Shown: one piece after another, positions 23,594 through 53,584 of the stretch
Position numbering within the stretch: the stretch's first letter is position 1
How the letters are laid out: every line of letters begins with the position of its first letter
Source of the DNA: Porpolomopsis calyptriformis
Lineage: Eukaryota > Basidiomycota > Agaricomycetes > Agaricales > Hygrophoraceae
DNA length: 64,000 nucleotides
Assembly: GCA_951640195.1 (NCBI GenBank)
Contig: OX621171.1
Location: 248,001 to 312,000, forward strand
Direction of reading: 5' to 3'
Position numbers and translations under genes: made by a program
Notes under the pieces: model-generated
What the model was told of the DNA's origin: nothing
Databases searched by the model: none
Seen by the model: only the letters and a program-made list of their open reading frames with translations

Positions 23594-24034
23594 CACTCCT
23601 TGCACCCGACTATTTTCCCACATGCAAAATCTTATGCAGAATAGTCGGTAGCCTGTTAAATTTTTGTGAAAAATTTTGTCTATTGCAATTTTTTTCATTC
23701 TGCTTTGTGCAAAATCGGTCTTAAATGTTCAATGTCACTCAAATTTTGCTCTTTGTAAATTGTTTTGTTTCGCATTCTTGCAAAAAGATGGGAAAATGTA
23801 GCATTTTATTATAATTTTACATTTCTGGAAAACAAAAAGTTCTACAGCGTGCAATTTTCTGCGAATATTGAAACTTTTCAAACATGAAATATTATAAATA
23901 TTGTACAAACATTTTGCATGGTGCAAAATCGGCAGGAAATCTAAGATTTTGTACACAACAAGATCGATCGTGCACTACAGCACGCGATGTCTGGAACGAT
24001 AGGCGTGCAAGCAAGCGCACGCAGATTTTCTTAT
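23594..24034 (+). repeat. terminal inverted repeat, left end of element P
   Basis: About 441 bp are alignable with the reverse complement of 53145-53584 at roughly 80-85% by eye, ending with GCAGATTTTCTTA. It is AT-rich, with several copies of a TGCAAAAT-like word in both orientations (for example 23635, 23710, 23925), which are candidate transposase-binding repeats. Confidence 0.9.
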
Positions 24035-25445
24035 CAATGATGATCACAACATATACCAATTGAAAGAACATTAAGTAGGCCATAGTCCGGCCAAATTTAC
24101 ACAGCTGAACTGTAAAATTTAGTAGACAATACAAGTAGACTACTCCTGCTCAATATATCTGAATGAGACACGTCTGTTAGCCTCAGGCATTGAAGCACAA
24201 GGATATACTTACCTGCAACAATGATATCACCACGGTTACCGCTACCTCTTCCCATGAGAGGTGAGAAGCAGCAAAATGTGAGTCGATCACATTTGTGGTT
24301 ATGATCTCGATCTCTTTGAGTCGAGTGCTCCACATCCTAGTCTGAAGTATGGGGTATCGAAGGAATGGGTCACAAGCGACTTGAGCATGTTCATAACGCC
24401 GGACAGCAATTAGTGTTTTGACAGTATTTGCGGCACGCAACTGCAAGATGTAATCAATTTGGGCAGGGACAGGCATCTCACTTTCATCCGAGGCAATCAG
24501 AACTTAACTATTCCCAAGGTGCTTTGATGATATTGCATCTGTGATACCGTCAATGGTCAAATGAGATAGGAAATTAGTGTGGCGTAGTGGGGTGACTCTG
24601 AGGAAGGTAGCCAGGGCCTGATGTATGCTCTGAGGCATTGGGTGTGAGTTGTATTCATTGGAATCATTCGCAGCTTCATCTTCTGTGTCCTGCGCTGCAG
24701 CAGATAAACTAAGGATATCAGTGACGAGCGTGTTGTGGACTTGCGGGTCCAGGAGTTTCTGGAACATCGGCTGGCAGTGTTTCATTGCCTGCGGACAACT
24801 AGACTTTGATAAAATGCCCCGCAGATTGGCAGATCTGGTGAAGGAGCGAGACATGGTCTCTTCAAATTCTCCTGGTCTATAATTGGTAGTGACCTGCTGT
24901 AGTACACCAATGAGCCTCTTAAAGGGAAAGGTCCACCATGCATGAACAGGGCCAAAGAGGAGTAAATATTTGTGGAGGTGGAGTGCCATATGATGATTAG
25001 GATGGAATTCATAATCAGGGAAAATCATCTTGATACCTGCAAGGTACACTTGCATGTGTTGCAGGTACAAATCAGCGTGCGCAGGTGAAGTGACACGAGA
25101 AGAGGTGACAACTACTGCGGAAAGGAGTGCTATTGTAACATCCAATATTTTACCACACCTATCTAACCGGTTATTGCCCGACTCTACCTTAGCCCAGAGC
25201 TGGACCAGGGAGATGGGAAGATATGTGGTACCAAGGACACGCCACTAGTCTGCCTTGAGCTTTCCATGGCTCGGGGAGCCCAGGTTTAGGGGCACTGATG
25301 TTAACCATGAGGGAGTCACCATAGCATCGATGTCAGACCGCAATTGTTGCAACTCCTCGACTGTGAGAACATGGCCATGCCTCACCAAATGAGTCTCCTG
25401 TTCCTGTTAAGCAACACGCTATAAATACTGATTAGTCTTAGAAAT

Positions 25446-25692
25446 TGTTACATCCCAGTTCTGACGAACTCTGACGAATTCTGATGAACTCCGATAACTC
25501 CGAACACTCCATACTTTTCACATGTTTCCTACTTATGATGTCCTCTGTCGTCACTATGTCTCAGATATAATTATCTAGCAGGTATATAAGTACTGCGTTT
25601 TTCCCCTGTATCTGTAGACAGAATATCGACTAAGTCCCGTCATTTATCCATCTCCGAACTCTGAATTCACCTCTGAAACTTTGGACCTAACA
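25446..25692 (+). repeat. 5' LTR of outer chromovirus
   Basis: 247 bp, TGTTACATCC...CCTAACA, the same length as the 3' LTR at 37694-37940 with a handful of mismatches. Direct repeats of the word AACTCCGA are typical of its U3. The left flank GAAAT is the target duplication. Confidence 0.95.
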
Positions 25693-25705
25693 GTATATTC
25701 TGTCT
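25583..25705 (+). promoter_or_regulatory. TATA box, RNA start and self-priming site
   Basis: TATATAAG is at 25583-25590. AGACAGAATAT at 25616-25626, about 30 nt downstream and therefore at the expected RNA start, is exactly complementary to ATATTCTGTCT at 25695-25705, 2 nt inside the LTR. Tf1 and sushi elements prime reverse transcription with the folded-back first bases of their own RNA, and the layout here is the same. The sibling copy shows the same pairing on the minus strand. Confidence 0.75.
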
Positions 25706-25727
25706 CTAGCTCGGGTTTTTATTCACG

Positions 25728-26954
25728 ATGACACAACATACTCTTGAACATTTTACAGGATTTTCAACTAGAAGTCAATTATCTCTGACCAACTCCGAAA
25801 CAAGTCCTGTGTCTCCGACTACGCATATATCTGAAAGGCTTCCTACTGCTTTTCATGATTGAGAAAATCCGTTACGACCTGTAACTCTGCGGACTACCCA
25901 AGGTCAAGCATCAACTTCGGTTGAAGAAACACCTCAAGTCCAGCCAACTCAAGAAGCTCCGGAACAGGAGACAGCTGAAGAGAGATTGATCATGGCTTTT
26001 CAAAATATCGCCACCATCACTCAAGCTTCTTCTGGAGCCAAACCCGCAAAATCCAAAGTCTGAGAGCCTGATCCTTTTGATGGCTCTGATCCGATGAAAC
26101 TCCGACCTTTCCTGGTTTAACTTCAATTGAATTTCAAAGATAGGCCTTCTGCGTTTACTTCCGATGAAGCTAAGGTCAATTACACTATGTCATTTCTGAA
26201 GGGAATGGCGTTATCTTTATTCAAACTTTACCTTTTGGAGACTATTCCTAACCCTCCATTGTTCCTTTCGGACTTCTCGGAGTTCTGCTCCGAGTTACAG
26301 GACCAATTCGGACCTTTGGATCCAATAGGAACTGCCGAAGCGGAATTGGAATCCTTGAAGATGTTTGATAATCAACGGATCGCCAAATATATTGTGCACT
26401 TCAATAGGCTAGCGGTTCAAGTCCAATGGGACATTGGAGCACTGCGGCATATCTTTTACCGTGGTCTTCCAGATCAAATCAAGGATCAAATGTCTCAAGT
26501 CGGAAAACCAGCCATGTTGGTAGCTATGAAGGAGTTAGCTCAAACGATTGATACTAGGTATTGGGAACGTAAAGGAGAGCTTAAGCAGGACTCTGGTCGT
26601 GCTCCGGCACCTCCGATGAATGCTCCTAAACCACCTTCAACTCCAACAACACCTTCTACTTTCAAGAAAACTCCTATGAAATCCACTCCGACTACCTCAA
26701 CTCTGAAGCATCCTGACCTCTCCGATAAGCTTGGAAAAGACGGAAAGCTTACTCCGGCCAAACGAAAACGTCGTTTGGATAATAACTTGTGTATGTTTTG
26801 TGGATCCCCAGGTCATATGGCAAAAGAATGTCCAAAGTCGGGTTCCTCTGCTTCAAAGAAGGCTTCTGGACGTGCCACTACTATTGCCAATCCACCCACT
26901 CAGGAATCCCCTACTCCTATTCCGAGCGCCCCTCCGGCCACTCCGGAAAAATAG
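25728..26954 (+). pseudogene. gag of outer chromovirus
   Basis: Structural protein that coats the element RNA. The ATG at 25728 is 35 nt inside the LTR. It has a Ser/Thr/Glu-rich N-terminus, then a capsid-like retrotransposon gag domain (about 26070-26560: LNFKDRPSAF...FHNRLAVQ-type), a Pro/Thr linker and one CCHC knuckle CMFCGSPGHMAKEC at about 26790. The length of 409 codons equals the sibling's gag. In-frame stops are TGA near 25859 and 26061 and a TAA near 26118. The first is shared with the sibling; the TAA position is open in the sibling (CAA). Confidence 0.9.
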
Positions 26955-27090
26955 GAGGCAGTCCGCATGAGACGCGGAATGTGGACTGCATTGAAACCGT
27001 TCCTGTGTCTTCTATTGTAAAGCTCAATGCTTCCGTTCCTTGCTCTGATTCCTTTTTGATCACTTTATTTATCGATTCATTATCTATTCC

Positions 27091-27336
27091 TGTTATGTCC
27101 GAAGTTTCGGAGTTGAATTCAGAGATCGGAGATGAATAAACGATGGGACTTAGTCGATATTCTGTCTACAGATACAGGAAAAAACGCAGTACTTATATAC
27201 CTGCTAGATAATTATATCTGAGACATAATGACGACAGAGGACGTCATAAGTAGGAAACATGTGAAAAGTACGGAGTGTTCGGAGTTGTTGGAGTTCATCG
27301 GAATTCATCGGAGTTCGTCGGAACTGGGATGTAACA
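27091..27336 (-). repeat. 3' LTR of inner chromovirus
   Basis: 246 bp, reverse of TGTTACATCC...CATAACA. Just outside on the interior side (27337-27349) is the polypurine tract, AAGAGGGAGATAC on the minus strand, identical to that of the outer copy. Confidence 0.95.
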
Positions 27337-27505
27337 GTATCTCCCTCTTAAGGGTAAGCCCTTGAGACCGCATATTGGACTTGACCATATTTGGTAATGA
27401 CCAAGAAATTGGAGTTTCGGAATGTGGCGGATTTCGGAGAATCGTCGGAGTTTGAAATCGGAACATATATAATAAGGTCCGGCGGACCACCCTTCTTCAT
27501 TAACA

Positions 27506-28288
27506 ATGCCCACTCGCGAAGAAATCCAAGCTCAACTCGCACAGCTTCAAGTCCTGCTCGAAAATGAAGAACAATGAGAGCGCGAGGAAGCGGAGCAAGC
27601 GGAGGAGGCCCGGAGGGTGGAGGAAGAGTGTCGGTTGGCAGAGGAACGACGAGCAGCCAGAAAGGCGGCTAAGGCTGCAAAAAGGGAGGCAGCAAGGAGG
27701 GCGAAGGAGGCGGCTCAAATAGCGGAGCCAGCGGAGCAGGCGGAGATGGCGGCAGAGGAAAGATCAGGGCAAGAGGCCTTGATCAGACGACCGTAAGTAT
27801 TTTCTGTTTATCCACTTTATTCCGGAGTTGACCGGAGTTCGTTTAGGAGGGCTCCGTGTGAGCCTTGCATCAAGAAAGGGAGTGCGGAGGGGTGTGTGTG
27901 GCCGACTGGACAGGGGAAGGCCCGGAGTTGTACCGCCTGCCAACAGGTGAAGGCCAAATGCTGGGTTGGAGAAGAACCAGCAAAAAGAAAGCGCGTTCGG
28001 AGCACCACGGAGGAACCAAAGCACGGCGGAAAAAGATGATGGGGAAATGCGGAGTCATCGGAGATGGCGATTTTGAGGGAGGAGCTGCAAGGAGTTTGGG
28101 GGGAGATGAGGAAGATGAGGATGGAGATGAAGAGAATGAGGGAGTCCATGGAGAGGAATGAGGAGTTGTTAGATGGGGAGTATAAGGATAGTGGAGAAAG
28201 CGGAGAAAGTTCGGAGATGTCGGAGGAGTTGGAGATGTTGGAGGAGGAAATGCCCATAAGGGATGTAGAAATAGTCCCTTTGGAATAG
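27506..28288 (+). pseudogene. antisense zinc-cluster gene of inner chromovirus
   Basis: The gene runs opposite to pol, between the pol stop (28338) and the 3' LTR. Exon 1 is 27506-27792, with a 54-nt intron 27793-27846 (GTAAGT...GTTTAG) and exon 2 27847-28288, about 242 codons. Residues 10-85 form a Glu/Ala/Arg coiled coil. Exon 2 begins with Cys-rich CEPC...GC...CTACQQVKAKC, spaced C-x2-C-x8-C-x11-C-x2-C-x6-C, close to fungal Zn2Cys6 clusters. A Met/Glu/Arg-rich helix and an acidic tail follow. TGA codons at residue 24 and after KHGGKR break it; the first also occurs in the outer copy. A DNA- or RNA-binding regulator is a guess from the Cys pattern. Confidence 0.65.
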
Positions 28289-28337
28289 ATAATGAATTTT
28301 TTTGAATTGAAGTAAAGAATAAATAAGAGCGAAAGAA

Positions 28338-31300
28338 ATCAATAGTCAGGTCCGGGTTTCTCCGGATAAGCGGAGTGGAACTCTGAGACGAGTTCCAAAG
28401 CATGTCCTAGCTCAGTAGCGAGGATCCATGAGGTTTCTTCGTCGGTACCTTCGTAGCCTTCCCAACAAACCAAATACAATAATTTGCATAAGCGACGCCT
28501 ATTATCAATTTTCGAGTCTAGGATTTCAGAGATCTCGAACTCCGGTTCTCCGTCTATGATTACTGGAGGAGGTGGAGGTTGTACTCGGTTGGAATCGTAT
28601 TCGGTGAGGCTGGTTCCAACTGTGATACATGAAAGACAGGATGGATAGCTTTCATGGAACTAGGCAAACAGAGAGTATAGGAATGGGTTCCAACTCGGGT
28701 AATAACCTCAAAAGGACCTAAGTTCTTCTCCGAGAGTTTCTTGGAGGGTCTGGTAGTTTGGAAAAACTTGGCCTTTATGAAGGCTTGAGTTCCTATTTCA
28801 AAATCAGGGGCTGGAATGCGTTTTAAGTCAGCGTAGTGCTGATAACGCTTTTGAGCTTCGGAGATGGTATTTCGGAGTTCGGAGTGGAGTTCGTCCAAAT
28901 CAACAGCTAGTTCTCTGGCTCGAACGGAAGTAAGATCATGCTCAGGGTGTACTGAAATATTTGGATGATAACCCTTGTTAGCGAAAAAAGGGGATATCCC
29001 AGTAGTAGCATTCGGAGCGTTGTTATACACGAATTCCGCAATAGCCAGGAGATGGGACCAGTTGTCCTGTTGATAGTTACAATACATCCATAGGTATTGC
29101 TCCAAGGTTTGATTGACTCATTCAGTTTGTCCGTCACCTTCCGGATGATACCCGGAGGTAAAATGGAGACGCATGTCAAGGACTTTACCCAATGACCGGA
29201 AAAAGTGGGAGACGAACTCTGAGCCTCGGTCACAGGTGACATGTGAGGGAACTCCATGTTTGGAGAATACATGGACAAGGAAAAGTTGAGCGAGTTGAGG
29301 AGCAGTGATGGTGTCGAAGGTTGGTATAAAAATAGCTTGTTTGGAGAATTGATCAATAATGACAAGAATAGTGGAGAATTCATCAGAGTTAGGGAGTTGC
29401 TCGATGAAATCCATGGAGATGGAATTCCAAGGTTTCTCCGGAATTGGGAGTTGCTTGAGCAAACCATAAGGTCGATGGCGAGGGACTTTGGACCTAGCGC
29501 ACATAGTACAGGAGTTACAGTAGTCCTTTACAAAGGTCCGGAGTTCCGGCCATGTGTATTCTCGTCGGATCAATTCAAGCATTTTGTTTTGACCAAAATG
29601 ACCAGCAATTGGATGATCATGTTTCATACGCAAAATTTGAAGTCGTAAGTCATCTACGTCGGGCACATAGATATGATCATTGTGACGAAGGAAACCAGAA
29701 GTGTCGATAGTCCATCGGAGATTGGAGTTGGCATTGGAGTTGGCCTCGGAGTTAGACTCCGCAACCTTCAGATGCTCCATAGCCACTGGATCATCACGAA
29801 GTGAATTCTGAATTTTCGAGTGGAGGGAGTCCACATCCATAATGAAAGCAGCCTTTAACACTGGATCCAATAAGGATAAAGCTCATAGGGACGAAGCCAG
29901 TTGCTCCGAGGTAAAAACTGGTCGGAGGTTCTGAGGGTTGATACTGGCGTAGTCGCTATCTCCCTCTTTAGGGTTTATGTCATACCGACGTGTTAAGAAG
30001 TCCGGTTTCGCTCCGAGCTTTCTGGGGCGAAAACGAATGACCAGATTAAAGCCCGACAAAAATTCAGACCAATGAGCCTGACGCCGTGACAGGAGTTTGG
30101 TTGTAGAAAAGTATACCAAATTCTTGTGATCAGTGACAATGTCGACCGGGTCAGAAGAGCCTTCAAGGTAATGACGCCAGTTGCGAAAACTATTGTGAAT
30201 GGCTAACAGTTCCTTGTCATGAATATTGTAATTCAACTCCGGCGGAGTTAAAGTCCGAGAGTAGAATGCAATGGGATGTAATGATTCATCATCAGCGTAA
30301 GTTGATAAGATGCCTACTATGGCATAATTGGAGGCATCTGTCTCTACTACCAGACGTGATCCCGGAGTGAAATTGACAAGAACAGGAGCGGAAGTGAAGG
30401 CCCACTTCAGAGATTCAAATGCGAACTTGCATTGAGTATCGAAATTCCACGGAACGTTTTTCTGGGTCAGTCGCGTAAGCGGGGATACCAATCCCGAGTA
30501 GTTATTGATAAAACACCTATAGAAATTTCCAAAACCTAAGAATGACTGGACATCCTTGATTTTCCATGGTTCTGGCCAATCCAGGATAATTTGAACCTTG
30601 GCAGGGTCCATGGTAATTCCACCAGGGGAAAGAATAAATCCAAGGTATTCAATCGTATCTTGATGAAAGAAACATTTCTCCAGTTTTCCGAAAAGACTGT
30701 TAAGTTGGAGTCTTCGGAGTACCTCGCGGACATGTCTCCGGTGATCTGTAATGTTATCAGAGTAGATAAGGATATCATCAAGATATACTACAACGGAGAT
30801 ATTGGAGAGGTCGGAGAAAATCTCGTTTATGAAACGTTGAAATGTTGATGGGGCATTGCATAGACCTAGGGGCATAACCAAGAATTCGAAAGCACCATAC
30901 CTGGTACGGAAAGTGGTTTTCCATTCATCCCCTCCCGCGATTCGTACATTGAAGTATCCAATTCATAGATCGATTTTGGTGTAAATACGACCTTTGCTGG
31001 CACGGTCCAGGAGATCGGAGATGAGCGGAAGTGGGTAACGATCTTTCTTGGTGATTTTATTGATGCCTCGATAGTCCACGCATAAACGTAAGGAACCATC
31101 TTTCTTGTGGATGAAAACGATCGGAGCACCGCCCGGAGATCTGGAGGAACGTATCCAACCTTTTCTAAGATGCTCATCCAAGAATATACGAAGGGCTTCT
31201 TGTTCCGCAACAGAAAGAGAATAGATGCGTCCCAGTGGAGGTGTCGTTCCTTCTTCTAGTTCAATATGATGATCGCTGTAACAATGAGGAGGAAGATGTT

Positions 31301-32015
31301 TAGATTTTCCTTCACTGAAAACATCAGCATAGTCATGATATTCCGGAGGAACTTTCGCGTAAAATGTAGGGTCCGGAGGAACATCAGAGATGTCGACAGA
31401 ACATGCTTTCGCAATATCAGTAGTTTGAAGAATGAATGATTGAGATCCTTCTTGCTTGCTAGCATGTACAAATGCGGCTGCCGAAATAATGGACACAGGA
31501 GGAAGTGAAGTCGGAGCTGGAGTCGGAGCTGGAGGGTCAAACAGAGTTGCCTCGGAGGGCATAGGTGTCGACCACGAAGACGAATACATCGGTTTTGGTG
31601 TCCCGAATGAAATACTGCTTGTAACCCAGTCAATCAACGGATTGTAGCGGGTAAGCCAGTTGAATCCAAGAACAGCAGAACAAGATGCATCCAATGGAGG
31701 GACCAAAAACTCAATATCTAGAGTTTCTCCAGATGGAAATCGGACAGGGAGGATAACTCCCAAATCAATGGTTCTCCCTTGAGATCCATCAAATAATTGG
31801 AGTTGCTTTGGAGGAAGCGGAGATGTTTTAAGCTTGTTTCGATGGACAAAGTCAAAGTCCAAGAAACAATGCGTGGATCCTGAATCGATAAGAGTTGGAA
31901 TAGATAATGAATCAATAAATAAAGTGATCAAAAAGGAATCAGAGCAAGGAACGGAAGCGTTGAGCTTTACAATAGAAGATGCAGGAACAGTTTCAACGCA
32001 GTCCACATTCCGCAT
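28338..32015 (-). pseudogene. pol of inner chromovirus
   Basis: The minus frame starts at the ATG at 32015, 18 nt beyond the gag stop. Protease LIDSGSTHC is at about 31900, RT RLCVDYRGIN at about 31095, VMPLGLCNAPSTF at 30880 and YLDDILIY at about 30780. RNase H ETDASNYA is at about 30350, the integrase zinc finger about 29655-29540 and CDRGSEF at about 29235. Chromodomain FEISEILDS...TSWILATE is about 28540-28400, and the stop is at 28338. TGA stops at about 30961, 29883 and 29118 plus a frameshift near 28560 kill it. The 30961 and 29118 stops are also present in the outer copy. Confidence 0.9.
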
Positions 32016-32032
32016 CTCATGCGGACTGCCTC

Positions 32033-33259
32033 CTATTTTTCTGGAGCAGCCGGAGGGGCGCTCAGAATAGGAGTAGGGGATTCCTGAGTGGGTGGATCAG
32101 CAACAGCAGTGGCATGTCCAGAAGCCTTCTTTGAAGCAGAGGAACCAGACTTTGGACATTCCTTCGCCATATGACCTGGGGATCCACAAAACATACACAA
32201 GTTATTATCCAAACGACGTTTTCATTCGGCCGGAGTAAGCTTCCCGTCTTTTCCGAGCTTATCAGAGAGGTCAGGATGCTTCGGAGTTGAGGTAGTCGGA
32301 GTGGATTTCATAGGAGTTTTCTTGAAAGTAGAAGGTGTCGTTGGAGTTGAAGGTAGTTTAGGAGCATTCGTCGGAGGTGCAGGAGCATGACCGGAGTCCC
32401 GCTTAAGTTCTCCTTTACGTTCCCAATACCTAGCATCAATCGTTTGAGCTAACTCCTTCATAGCTACCAACGTGGCTGGTTTTCCGACTTGAGACATTTG
32501 ATCCTTGATTCGATCTGGGAGACCACGGTAAAAGATATGCCGCAGTGCTCCAACATCCCATTGGACTTGAACCGCTAGCCTATTGAAATGCACAATATAT
32601 TTGGCAATTCGTTGATTATCGAACATCTTCAAGGATTCTAATTCCGCTTCGGCAGTTCCTATTGGATCCAAAGGTCCGAATTGGTCCTGTAACTCAGAGC
32701 AGAACTCTGAGAAGTCCGAAAGGAACAACGGAGGGTTAGGAATAGTTTCCAAAAGATAAGGTTCGAATAAAGATAACGCCATTCCCTTCAGAAACGACAT
32801 AGCATAATTGACCTTAGCTTCATCGGAAGTAAATGCAGAAGGCCTATCCTTGAAATTCAATTGAAGTTGAACCAGGAAAGGTCGGAGTTTCATCGGATCA
32901 GAGCCGTCAAAAGGATCAGGCTCTCGGACTTTGGATTTTGCCGGTTTAGCTCCAGAAGAAGCTTGAGCGATGGTGGCGATATTTTGAAAAGCCATGATCA
33001 ATCTTTCTTCAGCTGTCTCCTGTTCTGGAGCTTCCTGAGCCGGCTGGACTTGCAGTGTCTCTTCAACCGAAGTTGATGCTTGACCTTGAGTAGTCTGCGG
33101 AGTTATGGGTCATAACGGATTTTCTCAATCATGAAAAGTAGTAGGAAGCCTCTCAGATGTACACGTAGTTGGAGACACAGGACTTGTTTCAGAGTTGGTC
33201 GGAGATAATCGACCTCTAGTTGAAAATCCTGTAAAACGTTCAAGAGTACGTTGTGTCAT
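32033..33259 (-). pseudogene. gag of inner chromovirus
   Basis: 409 codons from the ATG at 33259, the same architecture as the outer gag: capsid-like domain (about 32880-32400), Pro/Thr linker and CCHC knuckle CMFCGSPGHMAKEC at about 32200. There is a TGA at about 32220 (CGA in the outer copy) and one near 33122 that both copies share. The 5' leader to the LTR is 35 nt. Confidence 0.9.
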
Positions 33260-33294
33260 TGTGAATAAAAACCCGAGCTAGAGACAGAATATAC

Positions 33295-33540
33295 TGTCAT
33301 GTCCAAAGTTTCAGAGTTGAATTCAGAGATCGGAGATGAATAAACGACGGGACTTAGTCGATATTCTGTCTACAGATACAGGAAAAAACGCAGTACTTAT
33401 ATACCTGCTAGATAATTATATCTGAGACATAATGACGATAGAGGATGTCATAAGTAGGAAACATGTGAAAAGTACAGAGTGTTCAGAGTTGTTGGAGTTC
33501 ATCGGAATTCATTGGAGTTCGTCGGAACTGGGATGTAACA
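33295..33540 (-). repeat. 5' LTR of inner chromovirus
   Basis: 246 bp on the minus strand. AGACAGAATAT within it pairs with ATATTCTGTCT just inside the element (about 33282-33292), repeating the self-priming layout of the outer copy. ATTCC follows as target duplication. Confidence 0.95.
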
Positions 33541-36500: not shown

Positions 36501-37086
36501 CTAAAATACCATCTCCGAAGCTCAAAAGCGTTATCAGCACTATGCTGACTTAAAACGCATTCCAGCCCCTGATTTCAAGATAGGAACTCAAGCCTTCGTA
36601 AAGGCCAAGTTTTTCCAAACTACCAGACCCTCCAAGAAACTCTCGGAGAAGAACTTAGGTCCTTTCAAGGTCATTGCCCGAGTTGGAACCCATTCCTATG
36701 CTCTCCGTTTGCCTAGTTCTATGAAAGCTATCCATCCTGTCTTTCATGTATCACAGTTGGAACCAGCCTCACCAAATACGATTCTGAACTGAGTACAACC
36801 TCTGCCTCCTCCGGTAATCATAGACGGAGAACCGGAGTTCGAGATCTCCGAAATCCTAGACTCGAAAATTGATAATAGGCGTCACTTATGCAAATTATTG
36901 TATTTGGTTCGTTGGGAAGGCTATGAAGGTACCGACGAAGAAACCTCATGGATCCTTGCTACTGAGCTAGGACATGCTTCGGAACTCATTGCGGAGTTCC
37001 ACTCCGCTTATCCGGAGAAACCTGGACCTGACTATTGATTTCTTTCACTCTTATTTATTCTTTACTTCGATTCAAAAATTCATTAT

Positions 37087-37524
37087 CTATTCCAAAGGGA
37101 CTATTTCTACATCCCTTATGGGTAATTCCTCCTCCGACATCTCCAAACTTTCTCCGCTCTCTCCACTGTCCTTATACTCCCCATCTAACAACTCCTCAGT
37201 CCTCTCCATGGACTCCCTCATTCTCTTCATCTCCATTCTCATCTTCTTCATCTCCCCCCGAACTCCTTGCAGCTCCTCCCTCAAATTCGCCATCTCCGCT
37301 GGCTCCGCTATTTGAGCCACCTCCTTCGCCCTCCTTGCTGCCTCCCTTTTTGCAGCCTTAGCTGCCTTTCTGGCTGCCTGTCGTTCCTCTGCCAACCGAC
37401 GCTCTTCCTCCGCCCTCCGGGCCTCCTCTGTTTGCTCCGCTTCCTCGCGCTCTCATTGTTCTTCATTTTCGAGCAGGACTTGGAGCTGTGTGAGTTGAGC
37501 TTGGATTTCGTCGCGAGTGGGCAT
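37087..37524 (-). pseudogene. antisense coiled-coil ORF of outer chromovirus
   Basis: 145 codons on the strand opposite to pol, starting 170 nt from the 3' LTR and ending 49 nt past the pol stop. The N-terminal Glu/Ala/Arg coiled coil and the C-terminal acidic tail (SEEELPIRDVEIVPLE) match the inner copy. The intron and the Cys-rich part are missing: the protein jumps from AEPAE directly to MANLREEL. A TGA stands at residue 24, as in the inner copy; translation could start after it at 37395. Confidence 0.6.
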
Positions 37525-37693
37525 TGTTAATGAAGAAGAGTGATCCACCAGACCTTATTATATATGTTCCGATTTCAAACTCCGACGATTCTCCGAAATC
37601 CGCCACATCCCGAAACTCCGATTTCTTGGTCATTACCAAATATGGTCAAGTCCAATATGCGGTCTCAAGGGCTCGCCCTTAAGAGGGAGATAC

Positions 37694-37940
37694 TGTTACA
37701 TCCCAGTTCTGATGAACTCCGATGAATTCCAATGAACTCCGATAACTCTGAACACTCTGTACTTTTCACATGTTTCCTACTTATGACGTCCTCTGTCGTC
37801 ACTATGTCTCAGATATAATTATCTAGCAGGTATATAAGTACTGCGTTTTTCCCCTGTATCTGTAGACAGAATATCGACTAAGTCCCGTCGTTTATCCATC
37901 TCCAAACTCCGAATTCACCTCCGAAACTTCAGACCTAACA
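37694..37940 (+). repeat. 3' LTR of outer chromovirus
   Basis: 247 bp, TGTTACATCC...CCTAACA, preceded by the purine tract AAGAGGGAGATAC (37681-37693) and followed by the target duplication GAAAT. Confidence 0.95.
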
Positions 37941-41170: not shown

Positions 41171-43728
41171 CTACACATCTGCCTCAGTTATATCAGGAAG
41201 ATCTACCAGATCTTTTGCAGCGAGGTCCCTCTTCTGCCTGTTGGTGAGTCCGGAATACCAATCTTCATCATAAAAATTTATGGGGAGCTCTGTAGGGGGG
41301 TCGTGGACACTCTTAGTATTGCTGGAATGTCGAAGCCTTGTGCGTGGCGGATTACCTGATCGAATATTCCTGTAAGCATTTGTTTTGTTGTGATCGCGGT
41401 CCACTAACATCAAGTAGCGAGTTAGTGCCTTACTTCGCCAGACTCGTTTCTTGACATTGTAAATTGGCCTATTTCTCTTGTTGGTATCACTTTCATCGGA
41501 GCTCATCCCCATGAGCGTTAAGGTGTCGACTATGTTGAAAAGCTCGTCCCAGGCTTCATCAACCATCCCATGCGGAGCCACCCTGTTTGCCAGGGCTATC
41601 TCTTTCCTCGTCATGAACAACTGTAACTTTGTGAGTGACCTAATTTATGTTGATTTAGTGCAGACTGACCTGACCACGTCGTGTGTTAGGTCTTTTTCTC
41701 TTCAGTTCCCCTTTTTTCTCCCTCAGCATGCATTCTCTGTAGTCCTCGATGGTCTCATCAGATTCCCTACTTGTTGAAGCGAGTTGACGGTGAAGGCGTT
41801 TCAAGTGATCCTCGAACATTGCTTCAAGCTCAGAGTGGTCATTGGCTGTAAGCGTTAGCTGATGTTCATCCTGAAATCTGTCCACAAACAATTCTGCCAG
41901 CCATTGATTCCATTGGTATTTCATTGGCTTTTTTGTGAAATATGGTCTCATTGGTTTCAAACTGGGACCTTGACTACAATCCGTTTCATACTCCATTATT
42001 GTGTCGATCGAGGGCCTTGTAATCGTCACTATATCCTTGTCTCTCACGATCCCTAGGAGGTTGTTCATCATTTCACGCACCAGTCCCTACATCCAATGTA
42101 ATTTGACCCGAATATCATGGTTGATTGTGATGGGCTCACCAGTTTCTCTGTCCTTTCTCGATCACATCCTCTGGTTGGAGCTCTTCGGAAGGAAAGGGGT
42201 AGCCACCTCTTAGGTGTATCTTCATTTATTGGCCTCTGGTTTACCAGTGCAGCAACTGTAGAACTCAGTTGCTGGATAGAGCCAAACATCATCCCCAACT
42301 TTGCATCCAAGTCGAGTTCTTCATAGTTTCGATCAGGCCTGTGGGAGCCTTGATTGAATCCCGCTGGCTGGGGGTTTTCATCAGGTTCTTCGGCAAGTCC
42401 TGAGACTTGGGGTTGCTTGGACTTTACAGTCAGAGCACGACCTGCGCTGCCTCGTGGTCTTTTGAATGTCATTGGCAGCGGCACACTGATATCCCTTTGG
42501 CTATCCTGTTGTATAGCTATCAGTTCCTTATCCCGCAAATTCGCATTTATCACACCTCGTCACTCTCAGACTCCAGCATTGCTCTCTGCTTTCCATGCTT
42601 GACTGTGTTGAGGTGTCATATGGACTTCCCCCGTTTCCCAACCTCGCTAGCACCAATATCATCCCCGCCAACCATCATTTCATCATCTTGTTCGTGTGTT
42701 CTACTATCGATGTTCCAGTGATGTGTAGCCCTGGATCCTGATGCATGCCCATCCACTGCCACTTCACGAAGTCACATCAGTTCTGCTGACTGGGTTATTC
42801 CTTTTTGCTCACCTTTCGCCTCAAGTGTATTTGTCCGATTCTCTGCAATAATCAATTGTTCGCGCATGCGAGCTTGCTCTTTATCCAGGAATTGGGCAGC
42901 TTGAAAAGCTAGTCAGCTGCTTGCAAACTCAGCCCTTCTCTGCACTAACCTTCAGCCTCTATTCTTGCTTGATGAATCATCACCTGTTCAGACAGGGTTG
43001 CGAATTCATTCGCAACTTGCTCATCAGCTTGTCGAGTCACTGCTTCCATCTGCTGCCGAAGCGCTTCCATTGACTCCTTGTAGGCTCCAACCTATCACAT
43101 TGTAAGTTTCGTGGTTTCCTGCAAGGGTGATTTGCCTACCTCTTGTTCTAATACTTTAATTTGCTCCGCCTGGCCTTGTACTACCAGTTTGGTCTTCATA
43201 CTCTCCTGCTCAACCAATTGAACATTTCTCGCACCTTGCCCCTGTCATATTCAATGGTGTGTTAGCCAGTCCGAGTCCTGAGTCCATTACACTTACTGGT
43301 GTTCGATGAGTAATGATGCGGGGGGTAGATTCAGTGTGTGCGATTTCTTCAGTGTCTGGGGTAAGTTCTTCGCCTCCATGTTGTTTCTAAGATCTGATTG
43401 AGGAATTACTGAAGACTGAAGATGACGAAGACACAGATCGTGAGATAGGGTTTTTAACTCGAGCCATCGAATTGTCAGATTGATGAGATGCGGGTTGGGC
43501 CGTAGAATTATCAACTGCGCTATCCTCCATTGTACTTGCAGTTACCTCTGGAGTGGAATGCAATGCCTGATCGCGGATTCCCTGACCAAGTAGAGATCGA
43601 AACATAATCAGAATGTGTCTGAGGACAGTGACAGCCAGGTCTGATGGACTATAAGTACTCATTCCTAGCACGACACTTTTGTCTGACGAATCTAAGGTGA
43701 TGCTTTTGTCCTGGCATCTCCTAAGCAA
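41171..43728 (-). CDS. spliced hypothetical protein of a mushroom-specific family
   Basis: Minus-strand reading blocks follow each other with the spacing of small introns. They are a Ser-rich N-terminus (43728-43387), a coiled-coil stretch with Gln/Glu-rich heptads (about 43290-42850), a Pro/Arg-rich block (42553-42100), a conserved block with PMRPYFTKKPMKYQWNQWLAELF (42080-41655), and a C-terminal block containing GMSSDESD, RVWRSKALTRYLMLVD and LPINFYDEDWY (41620-41171). Agaricomycete genomes contain many proteins with this SSDES...W...DEDWY order, and their function is unknown to me. Exact exon ends are uncertain, and a few stops at intron positions are not fully resolved. It lies inside element P, so it is cargo or a helper gene. 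Confidence 0.5.
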
Positions 43729-43864: not shown

Positions 43865-44323
43865 ATGCTATCTTCACGCGAGCTCATTCCCCCCTCTCAA
43901 AAGGTATGCTGTTTCATATGGTATTATCAAGTACTGAACTCTCAAAAGGCTAGGTACCTTACCATTTGTGGGCGTAGATATTCGGCATCATTGAAGCAAC
44001 CAAGATATGTCCACATCCAGGCACACGATAGCAGACCAACTCGGTTTCCCCTCTTGGAAGGCCTGCTAGCCAATGTGCGTACACAGCCCTATATCCATGA
44101 CTGCGTCGTTATCATCCATGAGGGCAATGAAGTGAACACATTCCAAGTGTTCTACAAGAACCACTGCAGGCTTCCAATCAATAAGGTTGCTGTTGAGAAG
44201 GGGAGACACGTACTCTGGCGTGGCGATGTTATTGTCATGCGAGCTGGAAAAAGGCAGCTGAGGTTAGTTGTAAACATGCGCGGAAGAGATTCCAGCATAG
44301 CAGACTTCATCGTCAGGGAGTGA
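43865..44323 (+). CDS. small conserved mushroom protein, element P cargo
   Basis: 152 codons starting at the ATG at 43865; an intron near 43903-43960 may connect LSSRELIPPSQK to RYLTICGRRYSASLKQ. The body (PTRFPLLEGLLANVRTQPYIHDCVVIIHEGNEVNTFQVFYKNH...LWRGDVIVMRAG) is a compact alpha/beta-looking domain without recognisable catalytic motif. It is transcribed away from the gene at 43728, from which it is 137 nt away, suggesting a shared divergent promoter. The sequence between contains TATA-like ATATATAATATA. Confidence 0.5.
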   Translation: MLSSRELIPPSQKVCCFIWYYQVLNSQKARYLTICGRRYSASLKQPRYVHIQAHDSRPTRFPLLEGLLANVRTQPYIHDCVVIIHEGNEVNTFQVFYKNHCRLPINKVAVEKGRHVLWRGDVIVMRAGKRQLRLVVNMRGRDSSIADFIVRE

Positions 44324-45633: not shown

Positions 45634-46266
45634 TTACAATCTGGAATGTACCTTCTCAAGTTTCCGTGTTATTTTTTTTGATTTGGCACGCCACGCGGTC
45701 TCTGCTGTATATTTCAGGTGGAGTTTAAGCATGTCACGCACTGGCCAGCAGTTCGCATATCTCCTCAGTTCTGGGAATGCCTTTTCTTGCTCTTGGCAGA
45801 TCTGAGTTATTAGTGGACGTCTCTGCTTGCTGAAACTCGCTTTGGTGTCAAGGTATTTTTTTGCCTGTGCATGAGTACCTTTCTGGTCTTGGGTGAGCGT
45901 TATTCTACTCCCTTGTATCCCTGAACTCACCAGTACTGCTTCATACGTCTTCTTAGGTAAACCTGTAGATTCCTCAAGGTTGTATCCCCCGCTACCCGGA
46001 CGTCCAGGTTCCCCTGGTGGTTTAGGGATCAAGGACAGCATCTCCTCATCATCGGATCCCTCAACAGAAGAGAGCTCGAACGATGTCTCAGAATGCTGGT
46101 CAGGTTCCTCAACGGTACCCCGTCTGGTCGGACGCTCAATCTCAGGGATGGAAAAATCGATGCAGGGCGTAATAGTTGGAAGCGTTTGGGGTGGAAATTC
46201 GATACATGCGGTAATCAGAGGGAGATGCCGTTTCATGTCATCCTGGATATCTCTACCTGTACTCAA
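45634..46266 (-). CDS. conserved mushroom protein with SKHLDT-like domain, element P cargo
   Basis: 210 codons from the ATG at 46266, open without stops. The N-terminal half is acidic and Ser/Pro-rich. The C-terminal half (about residues 95-205) contains GLPKKTYEAVLV, AKKYLDTKASFSKQ, ICQEQEKAFPELRRYANCWPVRDMLKLHLKYTAE, a block seen in many Agaricomycete hypothetical proteins that accompany the family at 41171-43728. A DNA-binding role is possible from the basic C-terminus (KSKKITRKLEK), but unproven. Confidence 0.55.
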   Translation of the reverse strand: MSTGRDIQDDMKRHLPLITACIEFPPQTLPTITPCIDFSIPEIERPTRRGTVEEPDQHSETSFELSSVEGSDDEEMLSLIPKPPGEPGRPGSGGYNLEESTGLPKKTYEAVLVSSGIQGSRITLTQDQKGTHAQAKKYLDTKASFSKQRRPLITQICQEQEKAFPELRRYANCWPVRDMLKLHLKYTAETAWRAKSKKITRKLEKVHSRL

Positions 46267-46444
46267 GTATATTTAAATCCTGGATACTTTTGTTCACTGC
46301 TCGTTGTTTGAGTGCAAGTGCTTTTGTTGTACTGTACTATCCTTGTCATCAAGAGTCAGTCACCTAGATACACAATCACAATTATGCAGAACGATATATA
46401 GTGAGCAGCTCAGAGGGACTCAAAGTAAAAGCAAGATAGACGCA

Positions 46445-47745
46445 ATGTTCATCCAAGAAATACAGAGATGGTGGAGATATTTGTACGCCCCACACAAAGT
46501 AAGTACTCAACATCACTTTATTTGTTCAAATCATTGATTCTATAAGTACTATCACCTCGCTGCTCGTCTCCGAGGTCATAAAGGCCCAATCAACTGCCTC
46601 GGTTTCACGCGAGATGGGGCATTCCTTGCAAGCGGTGGTAAGAATCTATTCTATCGCCAATAGAATCAGTATATCAATAAACTACAGGTGATGACGGATG
46701 TGTCAGAATCTGGGTGATAGCGACAATGACATGCCAGCATGTCATCCAGGATCATCATGGGAGTTGGGGGCAGATTACCTGCATCGCTTGGTTGGGGCAT
46801 GAAAGCGGTGGCCTAAACAAGACCATCTGCTTTGGAACAGGGCGAGGGCTGATCGCGATTTATAAAAGAATGAGGAATGGTGTACATACTTGAAAAGCTT
46901 CCATGATTGATAAGCTCAATCAGACAGCAGGTACCTGCTGTAGAATTATCGAGCACTTGCGTGGTTCCAAGCAGTGACAGCATCGAGGCACTGGCGTACG
47001 ACCCGGTCCACAGTCGGATTGCGGTAACTAGTCATTATGGAGAGATCTTGATGCATACGCTGGAGAAGAATGGTAAGCATTGTTCAGTACTGTTTGAGCT
47101 GTCATTTAATCGAAGCAGGTACCTTGGTCAAGTTGTGGAAGAAGCAAGTGGATGACGTGATTCCCCGAGCAATACATTTTCTGGACGAGTGCCAGAATAT
47201 TCTTGTCTTTGGCCTGGAGACGGGAGAAATGTGAGCTCGAAAATTGATTGGAAGGGAAATTTTTATGATGGTGATTTCAGGACATTGCAGAATGCAGAGG
47301 CAGCGGAACCTGTGGAGAAACCGAAAGTAGTCAAGACTTTGAAATCTGAAATGTAAGATCCCATTTACCATCATGTTTGGAACTTGCTGAATACAAGGTC
47401 GCAGAGGGAATGCAATTGTCTATCCCAAAGGGAAACTTGTGCTCATTGACAATTTATCCAATGGATTCGATCTATATCACATACCTTGCACGTCGCCAAT
47501 GCAGACAATGATCATTCGCTCAAAGAAGAGATTTGTGAAACAGGGAGCCTTCGTGGAGAATTGCACTGCTGTTGCTTGTGGAAGCGACCACGGAAGAATC
47601 TATGTCTTCCGCATCAAGACCTGCAAGCAGCTGCAGGTCCTAAAGCATACGGCAGGTGAGAAAAAAATCCACCAACTGGGCTCACATGCTGAGGACGCTG
47701 ATATCTGTCTCTGGAAAAAAACGGTGAGTTATGACCAACGTTAGA
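46445..47745 (+). CDS. WD40-repeat protein, element P cargo
   Basis: A beta-propeller scaffold gene with several small introns. Exon 1 is 46445-46498, intron 46499-46546, exon 2 46547-46637 (LRGHKGPINCLGFTRDGAFLASGG), and exon 3 from 46688 (DDGCVRIWVIATMTCQHV, GQITCIAW, FGTGRGLIAIYKR). Further blades are at about 46919-47080 and 47127-47250, and AVACGSDHGRIYVF at about 47565. Such WD40 proteins are common in mushrooms and here sit between two other cargo genes. The 3' end is uncertain: the frame from 47439 stops at 47744, and more exons may follow to about 48030. Confidence 0.6.
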
Positions 47746-48815: not shown

Positions 48816-50597
48816 CACTGAAACTCATGCCATGTATCGGGGTCGCGTTTCTATTCTCAACAGTGATATTTTTTATTCTCCAAACTGCTTGGCAGATGTG
48901 GAGCTTCTGGATCCAGCCCATCCCAACTGCTACATCTTCAGAGGCTCCGCTCTTCGCATTGAAGACTTCAAAAAACCTCGTTGGTGGAGTAACGCGTACG
49001 GATGGCTGAGCTTTATACCACTCCGGCCATCATTCACCGGGGTGCCATTCAACCGACTCAGCTTCCCGCCCATCGTCAGCAGACATGGCGGGTATCATCT
49101 TCGCGCAGACATGATGCAAAGTTGGCGGCGTCTTGAGAACAAAATGATTTATGCTGTGATTTTCATGAATAGACACAATCCAGAGCTGGCCTCACTCCCC
49201 TTCCTTCATCCACCCCCTCCATTCGATCTCCACTACAATGGTCTATACAGGACTGCTCGTGACGCTCGCATCCAACTCCATCTTGCTCGAGATTGGTTCG
49301 TCATGTGGATGGGCCTTCTCTCATACGCCATTGCCACGTCTTTCAAGACTTTTGGCGAAAAACTTGCCAATCCAATTCCCAAGTGGGTCACACTCTTGGC
49401 AAACAATGGCTTCCCCCAAGCTTGGTTATCCAGTGTCATGGCCTCTACGGTCAACGACTTCTCCCGTGACAACCCTCGAGCTGGTATCTTCATTGACCCG
49501 CTCCTCAAGCAGAGGAAATATGGCAAGCAGCCAGGTGTAGATTTTTTTTGTGACTACAATATCCCTGTATGGTACCTGTGGACATCCCCATATGTAAACA
49601 AGGCTCATTTTGATACCAACATTGCTATCTTGGCCCCCCCCTCGGAACTCCTGCAGGCTGCAACATTGTCGATCCTTCGAAGCCCTCGTTTCTCCATGCC
49701 ATCCTGCGAAGTGTCCACCAGTGTGGCAGAACAACGTAAACCACCCGAAAAGAAGCAAAAGCAAACAAAGCCGTGGGAGGAATTCTTCACGGTGAGAGCT
49801 AAACGACACGCCGAAAAGGAGTTGACAGAGAGCCCCCTCGATCGTCAGAAGCGCTTGCAGCGGGAGAAGAATCCTGCGATAAAAAAGGCCAAAGTTTTTA
49901 AATGGGTTTACAACGAGGAAGAACCACCTCAACTTTCCCGGTGAAAAGTTTCTCAAAAATATAATGAGGACACCATATACAACTACGGTGAACAGCAAAG
50001 GCAATACAATGCTTGGGAAAATGTGTGGGACCTGTGTGAAGAGTTTGGTGACAATGATGAGCCTGAGGACCCTTACCCCGAAGGCATGGATCCCTACGAG
50101 TACGACTTCCCACCTACTGCTACACAAGTGAATCCACCGGATGATCTGCTGGATGATGCTGTTGTCGACTCTTACCTCGCATGCAACGCTTTTGATTGCG
50201 GTGCAAGTTCTCTTGTTCCAAATGACGATGGCGATCAGCACAAACAGGTGCATAATGATGTCGTCGAACTCCTGGCTTGTCATTACGGCTTCGTCGCTCC
50301 CCTCCTAGATCTTGGCTCTCCACAGGACTCTCAGAGATGGCAGCGTGGCTTGCGCATTCTCAGCGTCAATGTGGATCTGGTTCCAGACTCACTCTCCTCA
50401 ATTGAAATGGCAATGGTTCATTTCATCTTCACGCTATCAAGAGGAGTGCGCCCAGATGTCATGAAATTGGCGTTCACTCTCTTAAAATTCCTCTCTTTTC
50501 TTCGTTAGGCCAATTCTTTTGGAAGGAAGGCTGTCTTTATTGGCAGTGGAAACTACTTGTATGAAAGGAGGAATCCATGTCTGACTAGCTAATTATA

Positions 50598-51430
50598 CTA
50601 GTCCATCTTGGCAATCTCCTGCACCATACTGTCCCTCAAGAACTCTACAAAACTCGACACTACTTGACCATCTATTGCGGCCAACTTATTACCCCAGTAG
50701 ATTGCCCCATTGGTGTCACCACCAGAGGCCTGCAACTCGGCAGCCTTCCCTTCAACGAAACTCATCGCTATCTTTCTCGCTTCCTCACCCAACCAATCGT
50801 TGGTGGGACTCCATAACAAACTGGGAGGAACTTCTTCCTCCTCGATCTTGACGTTGACGTTGGTCAATGACGACGACAAATCTTCGACTAAAAAAGACAG
50901 GGAATCAGCAACTATGAAGAGAGCGAGAGAGTTAAAAGGCTTACCACTAGACAAAACACTTGTTGGACTAGGGGTCCAAGGATGGAAAGGGGGGCTAGTA
51001 GGCAAGTCCTCAGGCTTAGCATCATCAAAGGGGAGGGGATACCCCCAACAGTCGGAACTCCAATCAACTCGCTCCTCCAAAGGGAGCTTGGAGGTGGGAG
51101 GAGGGGCGTCATCATCCCAAGCTAAAAAGGGAAAGCCTATTATCAATAAACACGGACTAATAAAGACAAAACAAGATACATACCAAGCGAATCCTCCATC
51201 AAGCCACAAACATGCTGGATTGGCCAGCGAACATATGGACACTTTCTGACCTTATGCTTGCCACCGCAAGCAAAACAAGAGAAGGAAGACCAGCAGAGGT
51301 CGGCGTTGGAAGGGATGCGCTGAAGGTAGTAATGAAATGAATCGCAATCGAGAAAGACAGGAGCAGTGCGGTGCACCACTCCAGACTGCTTGAAGAATCG
51401 GACGTAGTGGCCTTGGTAGGAGGGAGTCAT
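50598..51430 (-). CDS. zinc-knuckle-like gene within LTR B
   Basis: The start is the ATG at 51430. Exon 1 is 51430-51184, a 62-nt intron 51183-51122 (GTATGT...TTTTTAG), and exon 2 51121-50598, about 256 codons with no stop. Residues 50-70 read CFACGGKHKVRKC, a C-x2-C-x3-H-x4-C knuckle one residue shorter than retroviral CCHC. The rest is acidic with Pro/Ser-rich and helical segments (EEARKIAMSFVEGKAAELQ). A TATAAAAGG box precedes it on the minus strand. Gag-like RNA binding is plausible; the location within an LTR is unusual. The intron-exon structure is conserved in the decayed copy at 10301-11093. Confidence 0.6.
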
Positions 51431-51940
51431 GATGAATTGACAAGGATTGAACTGAAGCGTAGGGATACAACCCTACACCTTTTATACGCTCAGACACAAA
51501 GGGAAGACCAAAAGGAGGTTCCTCAGTCAAAGAAGAGAAACCCGATACGCCGGACAAGAGATAGAAACAACGGCGATCTCATGACTAGAAGAACAATAGG
51601 AACCAGTCATGAGACAGCACAGCCTGATACTGTGGAAGGCTATGCCTAATAGAGTTGAGTCATCAAAAAACAACACAGCCATCTGCAGTATGACTAAGAA
51701 CAATGGCAAACCTTAAACCGGAGGCTGTGAACAATAGAAAATGGGGTGACTGCGGAAGCTGACTCATAGTGACTCCTATTTTAGAAATACTATATAAACC
51801 CTGAGGGCAAAGTGGATCATCACTTCGTCCTCCTGTGAGATTACTTGTAGTAGCATGAACGCAATCAGAATCATCAGACTTCTTTTCCATCAGAACAAGA
51901 AAAGAGAAACATAAACCCATAACTACTGAGCCAATCGTTC

Positions 51941-52149
51941 ATGCCCATATTCCCTAAACTCTCAGCAGAGGCATGCAACGGATTTAACTCACAGAACAAC
52001 TTCTTTGTAGAAGTAAAACTTAACTCAGAAGGAATCATCACCCTTTACGAGGACGTCCCCGTCAGAACTTTCTTCTACATCCTACTAGACTTATTAAGCT
52101 CCAAGGCCTGCCTTGTGATTGACGAAAAGACTTGCAACTACAGTTGTGA
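51941..52149 (+). CDS. plus-strand ORF start at the right edge of LTR B
   Basis: Begins MPIFPKLSAEACNGFNS and runs open into the flanking gene; only the first 69 codons belong to the LTR. The same start is seen at 8823 with two substitutions to stop or changed codons. A TATATAAAC box lies 150 nt upstream. In a full-length element this ORF would continue from the LTR into the internal region. No family is recognised. Confidence 0.45.
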
Positions 52150-53144
52150 CACCAGAACAAAGCGAATGGGATCTCAACGATGGAAATCAACAAGCTCTGG
52201 TGCACAAATGCCACTCTCCGATTGCCCAGGCTGCACCGGACCTGTATGCCCTTTCATCCCCTCCAAGCTCTGCTTGCAACTGGGTCCTTGGCTTGACCAA
52301 TGCGGCAGATACGCTGTACGCATTACGATCGATCAGTAAAGACAATATCAGCATTTATAGCATGGCTCGCCTGCTGATTCAGCAGGGGATCACATTCCGA
52401 ACACTTGTATCACTCAAATTGGTCCTACCCCCAGTCTCACAGGCTACTGTGAAGATAGTACCTATACGTTTGTTGGGTTACAAATTCGCTTCACACGATT
52501 ATGCCGCTTATCTACATGAACGAGCCGCAATCCTCACCCAACCACGAGGCCATACTGCCCTACTCCAGGGAGGGATCGTTTGGCAGTTGGCCAAGGAGAG
52601 TCTCAGCCTCAACTCTGCATTGCAAGGCCCTTCGTCTGCGGTAACAGTACATCATACGGGGTACTGCACAGATGAACTGGAACTGGGCTGTGCACTATGG
52701 GATGACGAACTCTCGGATGCAGAAGTCCGACTTATTTGCGGAGTCTACCACTGTTATACAGGTGTGTATGGTGTTACTATATCTCCTACCAGAGCTGATC
52801 CTTCTTTGCTTTTCAGGGTATGGTGATCAAATGGTGGTGAAATCTTAGTGGCCGCTTCCCACCACCTGGAATGAGTGGGATTGTGGCGTCAATCTCAGCC
52901 ATTGGACAGAGCGGAATGAGGAGTGGTATCAAAAACATTTGAAGGAGATCCAAGATGGACAGGCTGAACCTCTCCCTGCCAACAAGTGGTGTGACCGACT
53001 GAAAGGAATGAGAGAAACTCGCACTCTCAAAGCATGCATTCGAAAATTCTCATATAAGTACTTGGATAACCACCACTTCTTTGCATAGTGTCTCACTACT
53101 TGTAGCGTTTTCAATACTATTTTTTTCCATGTCATACCACTAAG

Positions 53145-53584
53145 TAAGAAAATCAGTGTGCACTTGCTTGCATGCTTATTGTTCTAGACATCGCGTGCTT
53201 CAGCGTGTGGTCAATTTTGTAGTGTGCAAAATTTTAGATTTCCTGCTGATTTCGCACCTTGCAAAATGTTTGTGCAATATTTATAATATTTCATGTCTGA
53301 AGAGCTTAAATATTTGCAGAAAATTGCACACAGTAGATCTTTTTGTTTCCAAATGGTGCAAATTATAATAAAATACAACATTTTCCCAATGTTTTTGCAA
53401 GAATACGAAACCAAACAAATTTACAAGAGCAAAATTTGAGTGACATTTAACATTTAAAACCAATTTTGCACAAAGTGGAATGAAAATAATTGCAGTAGAC
53501 AAAATCTTTTATGATATTATAACAGACTACCAACTATTTTGCATAAGATTTTGCATGTGGGAAAATAGTTGGGTGCAAGGAGTG
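53145..53584 (-). repeat. terminal inverted repeat, right end of element P
   Basis: 440 bp, reverse complement of 23594-24034 with scattered mismatches and a few indels. It ends GGGTGCAAGGAGTG, followed by ATT. The long perfect-looking core is the outermost 47 bases. Confidence 0.9.

Follow-up and report, generated by a model that had tools for sequence, protein, structure and literature searches.

The mobile element described here lies at positions 23594 to 53584 of a stretch of 64,000 nucleotides from the mushroom Porpolomopsis calyptriformis (assembly GCA_951640195.1, contig OX621171.1, positions 248,001 to 312,000); the whole stretch is called the window. The element is a cut-and-paste DNA transposon of the CACTA/EnSpm superfamily (CMC clade). 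Its best description, to which a probability of about three in four can be given, is that of a transposon with a native length of about 15.8 kb and a conserved module of five genes (a Tnp2/DUF4218 transposase and the accessory genes g2, g3, the WD40-like g5, and g4), and not that of a ship loaded with cargo. The accessory genes look like genes of the element itself because the same families are present in a second transposon family of this genome, named C8, and at further loci, and because the large differences between copies of the element are retroelements.

Ends of the element and its insertion site

The element is bordered in the window by the following features:
23594..24036, + strand: left terminal inverted repeat, starting with CACTCCTTGCACC, 86% identical to the right arm over 444 columns
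53145..53584, - strand: right terminal inverted repeat, inverted copy of the left arm
23591..23593, strandless: target-site duplication ATT, left copy
53585..53587, strandless: target-site duplication ATT, right copy

The two arms, each of about 440 bp with CACTCC termini, are identical in 381 of 444 columns (E 2e-143), and ATT borders the unit of 23594-53584 at both sides. Joined with a single ATT, the flanks give one reading frame of a Ty3-type reverse transcriptase (RT)/RNaseH (...KDAIWEWTPK...). A stop codon follows the joint closely in this frame, so that the host retroelement was itself decayed. An open reading frame (ORF) just beyond the left end (21959-22951, - strand), within the retroelement entered by the element, encodes RNaseH and integrase domains. 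When 200 bases of the flank joint were used as a query, all of the 40 matches scored (132 candidates) covered both of its sides without a break, with 85-88% identity; these are paralogous empty sites for the window insertion. It can be said that the insertion is real and its ends are exact, because inverted arms, ATT flanks, a restored frame and uninterrupted matches across the joint are all present. An earlier sequence-only reading of this DNA had claimed exact long inverted ends, an ATT duplication and perfect restoration of a split pol frame, all of which are confirmed, and empty sites and 3-bp duplications, which it had proposed to look for in other assemblies, were found in the source genome, the latter in each of the five two-ended copies described below.

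Copies, nested insertions and native size

With the left arm as a query, 11 genomic places were obtained, the window included: four other left-type arms are 96-99% identical to that of the window and six right-type arms are 81-87% identical to the left arm. They pair into four two-ended copies (A-D) and leave three one-ended places (E, F and G). The two-ended copies are:
Copy A: the window, 29,991 bp, duplication ATT
Copy B: C1:3807592-3837774, 30,183 bp, duplication ATT, flanks in common with A
Copy C: C1:3146881-3171663, 24,783 bp, duplication ATT, at another site than A and B
Copy D: C6:1006443-1022235, 15,793 bp, duplication AAG, at its own site

Copies A and B are counted as one insertion because they share flanks, apparently inside a larger duplicated region, so that the 3-bp duplications comprise those of A and B (ATT, one event), C (ATT), D (AAG) and the C8 element (TAT). 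Paired matches between C9:104-348k, which contains the window, and C1:3754-4005k point to an inverted duplication of about 240 kb, perhaps a segmental duplication, perhaps the region as it stands in another haplotype.

Two insertions are nested in the window copy:
25446..37939, strandless: block of a long terminal repeat (LTR) retroelement of Ty3 type, 5-bp duplication GAAAT, with gag, RT, RNaseH and integrase; absent from this place in C, D and E
50457..52151, strandless: solo-LTR-like insert of 1.7 kb, TGTCA..TGACA ends, duplication CCAGA; absent from D

The 12.5-kb LTR block interrupts the transposase gene and the 1.7-kb insert interrupts g4. Copy C carries its own 7-kb Ty3-type retroelement with a chromodomain, the 1.7-kb repeat at a different place, and a 0.3-kb insert of unassigned type. 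The large differences among copies A-D are, in the few complete copies compared, LTR retroelements and the solo-LTR-like insert, not recognised host genes. Because copy D is without both window inserts, the native element is taken to be about 15.8 kb long; the size of 30 kb proposed in the sequence-only reading has to be corrected, the remainder being nested insertions. The window copy is a decayed passenger, which could be mobile only with a transposase supplied in trans.

Transposase and placement in the superfamily

The transposase occupies the following part of the window:
24186..40392, - strand: Tnp2/DUF4218 transposase gene, mapped from pieces of copy D; split by the LTR block, with stops in the window copy

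In copy D, the transposase matches PF02992 (1.4e-8) and PF13960 (6.6e-7), both over the cut-off, and the window copy matches PF13960 (1e-6). A search with self-chosen patterns found the motifs of the CMC clade, not every one in every copy: VDFFNP, CDLPATRK and its variants with the second catalytic aspartate, the C2C motif FCSIC, the H3H motif HMALH and the glutamate in FPFER/YPFER. The first catalytic aspartate, within VDFFNP/IDFFNP, is present in A, B, C, C8 and C14, a relative of the C8 family, and is replaced by N in D and E. The termini are CACTC in A-D and CACTG in C8, that is, of CACT type but not CACTA proper. The earlier claim of a Tnp2-like transposase in a DDE unit of CACTA type is borne out by the two Pfam matches and the CMC motifs.

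Other identities were searched for in the 31 ORFs of at least 150 amino acids within the window copy of the element. The Plavaka transposase PF18759 had no match there or in the pieces of D, and the TGT..ACA or CATCA..TGATG ends given for Plavaka in the available part of PMC12730594 are not those of the element. A Plavaka-like identity, which the sequence-only reading had named next to CACTA, is therefore rejected on the strength of PF02992 and PF13960 in place of PF18759 and of different termini. Among the matches listed for PF18758 (KDZ), none of 19 falls in the element, and the duplications are of 3 bp, not of 7-8 bp. No DUF3435 captain (PF11917) was detected in these ORFs or in the pieces of D, a search by which a gene broken up into many short exons could be missed.

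Accessory genes of the module

The four accessory genes are positioned in the window as follows:
41174..42557, - strand: g2, conserved family; its N-terminus may be encoded by ORFs that reach upstream as far as 43746
45659..46272, - strand: g3, with a conserved PKPPGEPGRPGSGGYNLE motif; helical C-terminal part in the model of a relative
46738..47735, + strand: g5, WD40-like beta-propeller (weak assignment); shows a gap of 80 bp when compared with B, C and D
48832..53085, + strand: g4, split by the 1.7-kb insert in the window copy

Tnp2 and g4 lie at opposite ends of the element and both point outward. The genes of the sequence-only reading at 41171-43728, 45634-46266 and 48832-53088 correspond to the conserved families g2, g3 and g4. 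Its count of at least five genes plus a WD40 gene is reduced to four accessory families including the WD40-like one, and the WD40 assignment itself is upheld weakly: ten WD40/beta-propeller families are listed for g5, the best at E 0.009 and none over its own cut-off. A sub-threshold match to DUF1348 (E 0.008) aside, found for g3, no further Pfam domain was recorded among the 31 ORFs outside the nested retroelements. For a g4 relative, parts of the predicted model are confident, and it gave no fold match; the model of a g3 relative has an N-terminal half of low confidence and a confident, helical C-terminal part with no clear match. Between g2 and g3 (window 43746-44263, with a counterpart in D) lie unassigned pieces of ORFs, which may belong to the N-terminus of g2 or to a sixth gene.

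The g2 pieces of A and C are stop-free and, compared with D, have ratios of nonsynonymous to synonymous substitution rates (dN/dS) of 0.21-0.53. Of 32 comparisons of gene pieces between D and the other copies, 31 give a dN/dS below 1 (0.21-0.81), and in the remaining one the ratio is undefined, dS being 0. The comparisons exclude stop codons and are not independent of each other.

Protein searches gave relatives of these genes in other Agaricales: five for g2, one of them named (Marasmius crinis-equi); 24 for g3, the named ones from Armillaria, Infundibulicybe and Gymnopilus; and at least 43 for g4 (best 7999 candidates scored), the named ones from Galerina, Pholiota, Lyophyllum, Coprinopsis and Phlegmacium. 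All named relatives of g2, g3 and g4 are fungal and most relatives are unnamed. The labels PF26792 (three of five g2 relatives) and PF28437 (32 of 43 g4 relatives) are precomputed for the relatives and were not shown by the Pfam copy used on the element.

A second family and a wider clade

Searches of the genome with the module proteins led to the C8 element, which is made up as follows:
128313-128833 and 146930-147448: inverted ends of 521 bp, 98% identical; termini CACTGGTGG; duplication TAT
130.8k, - strand: Tnp2
133.6-134.5k, - strand: g2
140.2-140.8k, - strand: g3
142.0k, + strand: WD40
144.1-146.7k, + strand: g4

Gene order and strands are those of D, with Tnp2, g2 and g3 leftward and WD40 and g4 rightward. 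The inverted ends sit near the places predicted from D, giving an element of 19.1 kb in which all five genes are enclosed; its interior is mostly known from search matches, not from its letters. The end stretches of C8 that were fetched have no blastn similarity to D, and with tblastx the two outer genes are matched at 36-51% identity. Protein identity between C8 and D is 32-52% in the matched pieces. Inverted repeats pairing over the transposase alone, which the sequence-only reading had named as an outcome against it, did not occur.

Whole or in part, the module genes recur at loci with about 26-52% protein identity. At C4:1514.8-1527.0k, g4, WD40, g2 and Tnp2 follow each other with the arrangement and orientations that D shows when it is reversed. 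A second order (g4, g2, WD40, Tnp2) is found at C3:1349.0-1361.8k, C9:1180.2-1191.9k and C12:742.0-771.6k, where g4 and g2 are leftward and WD40 and Tnp2 rightward; the C9 locus also has g3, leftward, and the C12 locus extends over 30 kb with another Tnp2 match inside. Since the gene order at these three loci differs from that of D, Tnp2 and g4 are considered to have exchanged ends. All five families are present in C8 and at C9:1.18M, whereas C4, C3 and C12 each have four of them.

Divergence from D has been ranked for three of the families, and in these C8 and C14 are closer to D than the other loci. Tnp2 is 51% identical in C8 and 49% in C14 (36-39% at other loci), the C-terminal part of g2 42-44% in C8 and C14 vs 27-31% elsewhere, and WD40 40% in C8 vs 27-35% elsewhere, C14 not having been found with the WD40 query. 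End fragments of C8 type, some split or short, are scattered at C10:838-854k, C9:343k, C1:3759k, C6:1088.7k and other places, as from decayed or non-autonomous relatives. In the C14 relative (C14:1349764-1352687), about 2.4 kb of inserted DNA interrupts the left inverted end.

Linkage of the module genes

Outside the close family, another member of the module was found within 10 kb for seven of eight g2 loci, three of four g3, seven of seven WD40, six of seven g4 and seven of eight loci of the Tnp2 clade; within 25 kb these values become 8/8, 4/4, 7/7, 7/7 and 7/8, respectively. The clade of eight Tnp2 loci was drawn by match strength, weaker matches being grouped with the others, and three of the weaker ones (C10:1960k, C2:66k and C4:497k) were left out of the counts. 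As controls, KDZ loci were near an accessory gene in 0 of 12 cases (10 kb) and 1 of 12 (25 kb), and Tnp2 matches that belong neither to the clade nor to the close family in 1 of 45 and 2 of 45. With one g4 query, which gave at least 13 loci among the best candidates scored, 13 of the 13 loci found are element-associated: those of A-D and C8 lie between inverted ends, those of F (at a distance of 7 kb) and G near an end of right type, and the other six within 25 kb of another member. To this extent the earlier claim is supported that such an element can explain the repetition of orphan mushroom families, here in the source genome.

Weighing of the evidence

Several points weigh against a conserved five-gene module. 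All evidence for the module comes from one genome, and paired ends bracketing all five genes are seen in two families only; for the loci with the second gene order inverted ends were looked for and not found. A uniform rank of divergence across families holds for Tnp2, g2 and WD40 only, no rank being available for g3, where the values almost coincide, or for g4, for which the queries differed. At C9:881k, one of the eight loci of the Tnp2 clade, accessory genes are absent from the surrounding 25 kb. No plainly intact or plainly working transposase was seen in the A-D family: A has stops, D and E have N for the first catalytic aspartate, and C carries inserts. Under a null of uniform placement, P is 3.6e-10 for seven of eight g2 loci lying no more than 10 kb from one of 56 Tnp2 places and 5e-11 for five of seven g4 loci lying equally near to g2; these values are too small because transposable elements cluster, which is why the controls matter. 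The heptamer TGCAAAA occurs five times in the left arm (about 0.9 in shuffles) and six times in the right arm (about 1.1), but it was picked after inspection, and the top 7-mer counts were equalled by 22-73 of 500 shuffles.

Among the other explanations, the one which survives best, unlikely as it is, regards the element as a giant cargo-mobilising transposon, a DDE counterpart of Starships whose accessory genes are captured, moved and swapped host genes. A large multi-gene unit with exact ends, orphan and multicopy families, a Tnp2/g4 order varying between lineages, and g3 and g4 without a demonstrated equal rank of divergence would all suit it. It is difficult to reconcile with the presence of the whole set of families in C8 and at C9:1.18M and of all but one in C4, C3 and C12, and with large differences among A-D that consist of LTR retroelements and a solo-LTR-like insert (the 0.3-kb insert of C being unassigned). 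Cargo in the Starship sense, as put forward in the sequence-only reading, is accordingly not supported: the same families recur in C8, whose ends, as far as compared, have no DNA similarity to those of D, and, whole or in part, at further loci, and the large differences among A-D are retroelements.

Considerably less probable is that the accessory genes are left over from a virus or a once autonomous mobile element which had become joined to a CACTA transposase. Teratorn is a precedent for such a fusion, and several linked genes with named relatives that are all fungal (most being unnamed) and modelled relatives with no significant fold match would agree with it; against it, the ORFs of the element outside the nested retroelements gave no Pfam match of capsid, DNA polymerase or packaging type. 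The least credible explanation, a plain CACTA transposon of one or two genes lying by chance beside repeated genes in regions rich in transposable elements, can appeal to the 44 of 45 further Tnp2 matches without an accessory gene within 10 kb, by which Tnp2 alone is common in the source genome, but it leaves unaccounted for the inverted ends enclosing all genes in A-D and C8, the linkage of g2 (7/8) and WD40 (7/7) set against the controls (KDZ 0/12, other Tnp2 1/45), and the conserved order and strand.

Proposed mechanism and origin

By analogy with CACTA biology, the transposase of the five-gene transposon would cut at the CACT ends and join them to a staggered 3-bp target. It is predicted, less firmly, that g3 and/or g2 might bind the AT-rich repeats of the long ends, which are rich in TGCAAAA, in a TnpA-like role. 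A putative task of g4 and the WD40-like protein, likewise less firmly placed, might be to help in assembly of the synaptic complex or to counter silencing.

A broader proposal may be held tentatively, at somewhat less than even odds: the transposon would belong to an old, distinct agaricomycete DDE lineage with an inherited core of five genes, in which the ends bearing Tnp2 and g4 were swapped; the accessory genes would be machinery for moving or protecting an element of 16-30 kb, and much of the repeated orphan content of mushroom genomes (PF26792, PF28437 and g3) would be its debris.

Relation to known systems

CACTA/EnSpm (CMC) transposons, among them the fungal EnSpm of Kojima 2025 (PMC12730594, in the part available), resemble the element in their DDE transposase, which bears C2C and H3H motifs, in their CAC..GTG ends and in their 3-bp duplications. 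The accessory gene treated in that part is TET/JBP, and a word search of the main text for WD40, Tnp2 and DUF4218 gave no hit. Full-length CACTA elements are described with two ORFs in the portion of PMC4158355 at hand, in contrast to the five linked genes in 15.8-19.1 kb found here. Closer in size and gene number, and of the same superfamily, are EnSpm families of the red alga Chondrus crispus with 16-20 kb and 4-5 ORFs (Kojima 2013, as cited in the available part of PMC6431247), a likeness by description only. Plavaka (TGT..ACA or CATCA..TGATG ends and pfam18759) and the KDZ groups (7- or 8-bp duplications) are, according to the accessible parts of PMC12730594 and PMC8290104, common DNA transposons of mushrooms in which an additional gene, TET/JBP for example, can be present; the element differs from Plavaka in ends and transposase and from KDZ in transposase and duplication length. 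Starships are likewise large multi-gene cut-and-paste units of fungi, moved by a DUF3435 tyrosine recombinase (PMC12134995, in the part available) and reported in the basidiomycete Tremella fuciformis (PMC13066641, likewise), whereas in the element the transposase is of DDE type and the set of genes is fixed. No description of a five-gene mushroom module was found in the available parts of the literature searched. The superfamily is known, as is a multi-ORF EnSpm of similar size from a red alga, and the five-gene module of mushrooms appears, judged by sequence and by those parts of the literature, to be new.

Neighbouring features of the window

The window also contains a retroelement ORF with RT, RNaseH and integrase that flanks the element (1433-4744, + strand) and an ORF with an rva_4 integrase core (14041-14739, + strand; PF24764, 1.9e-23), which directly precedes tandem repeats. 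Two degenerate tandem-repeat blocks (14782-15947 and 19890-20802) match each other in inverted orientation.

Significance

If repeated hypothetical families of mushrooms are a transposon's own genes, they should be masked and not counted as host genes, and such masking would alter analyses of gene-family expansion. The element would then also offer a new model for a DDE transposon which maintains a multi-gene unit well beyond the usual two ORFs of CACTA, and its four defined accessory proteins would be candidates for roles in transposition or silencing.

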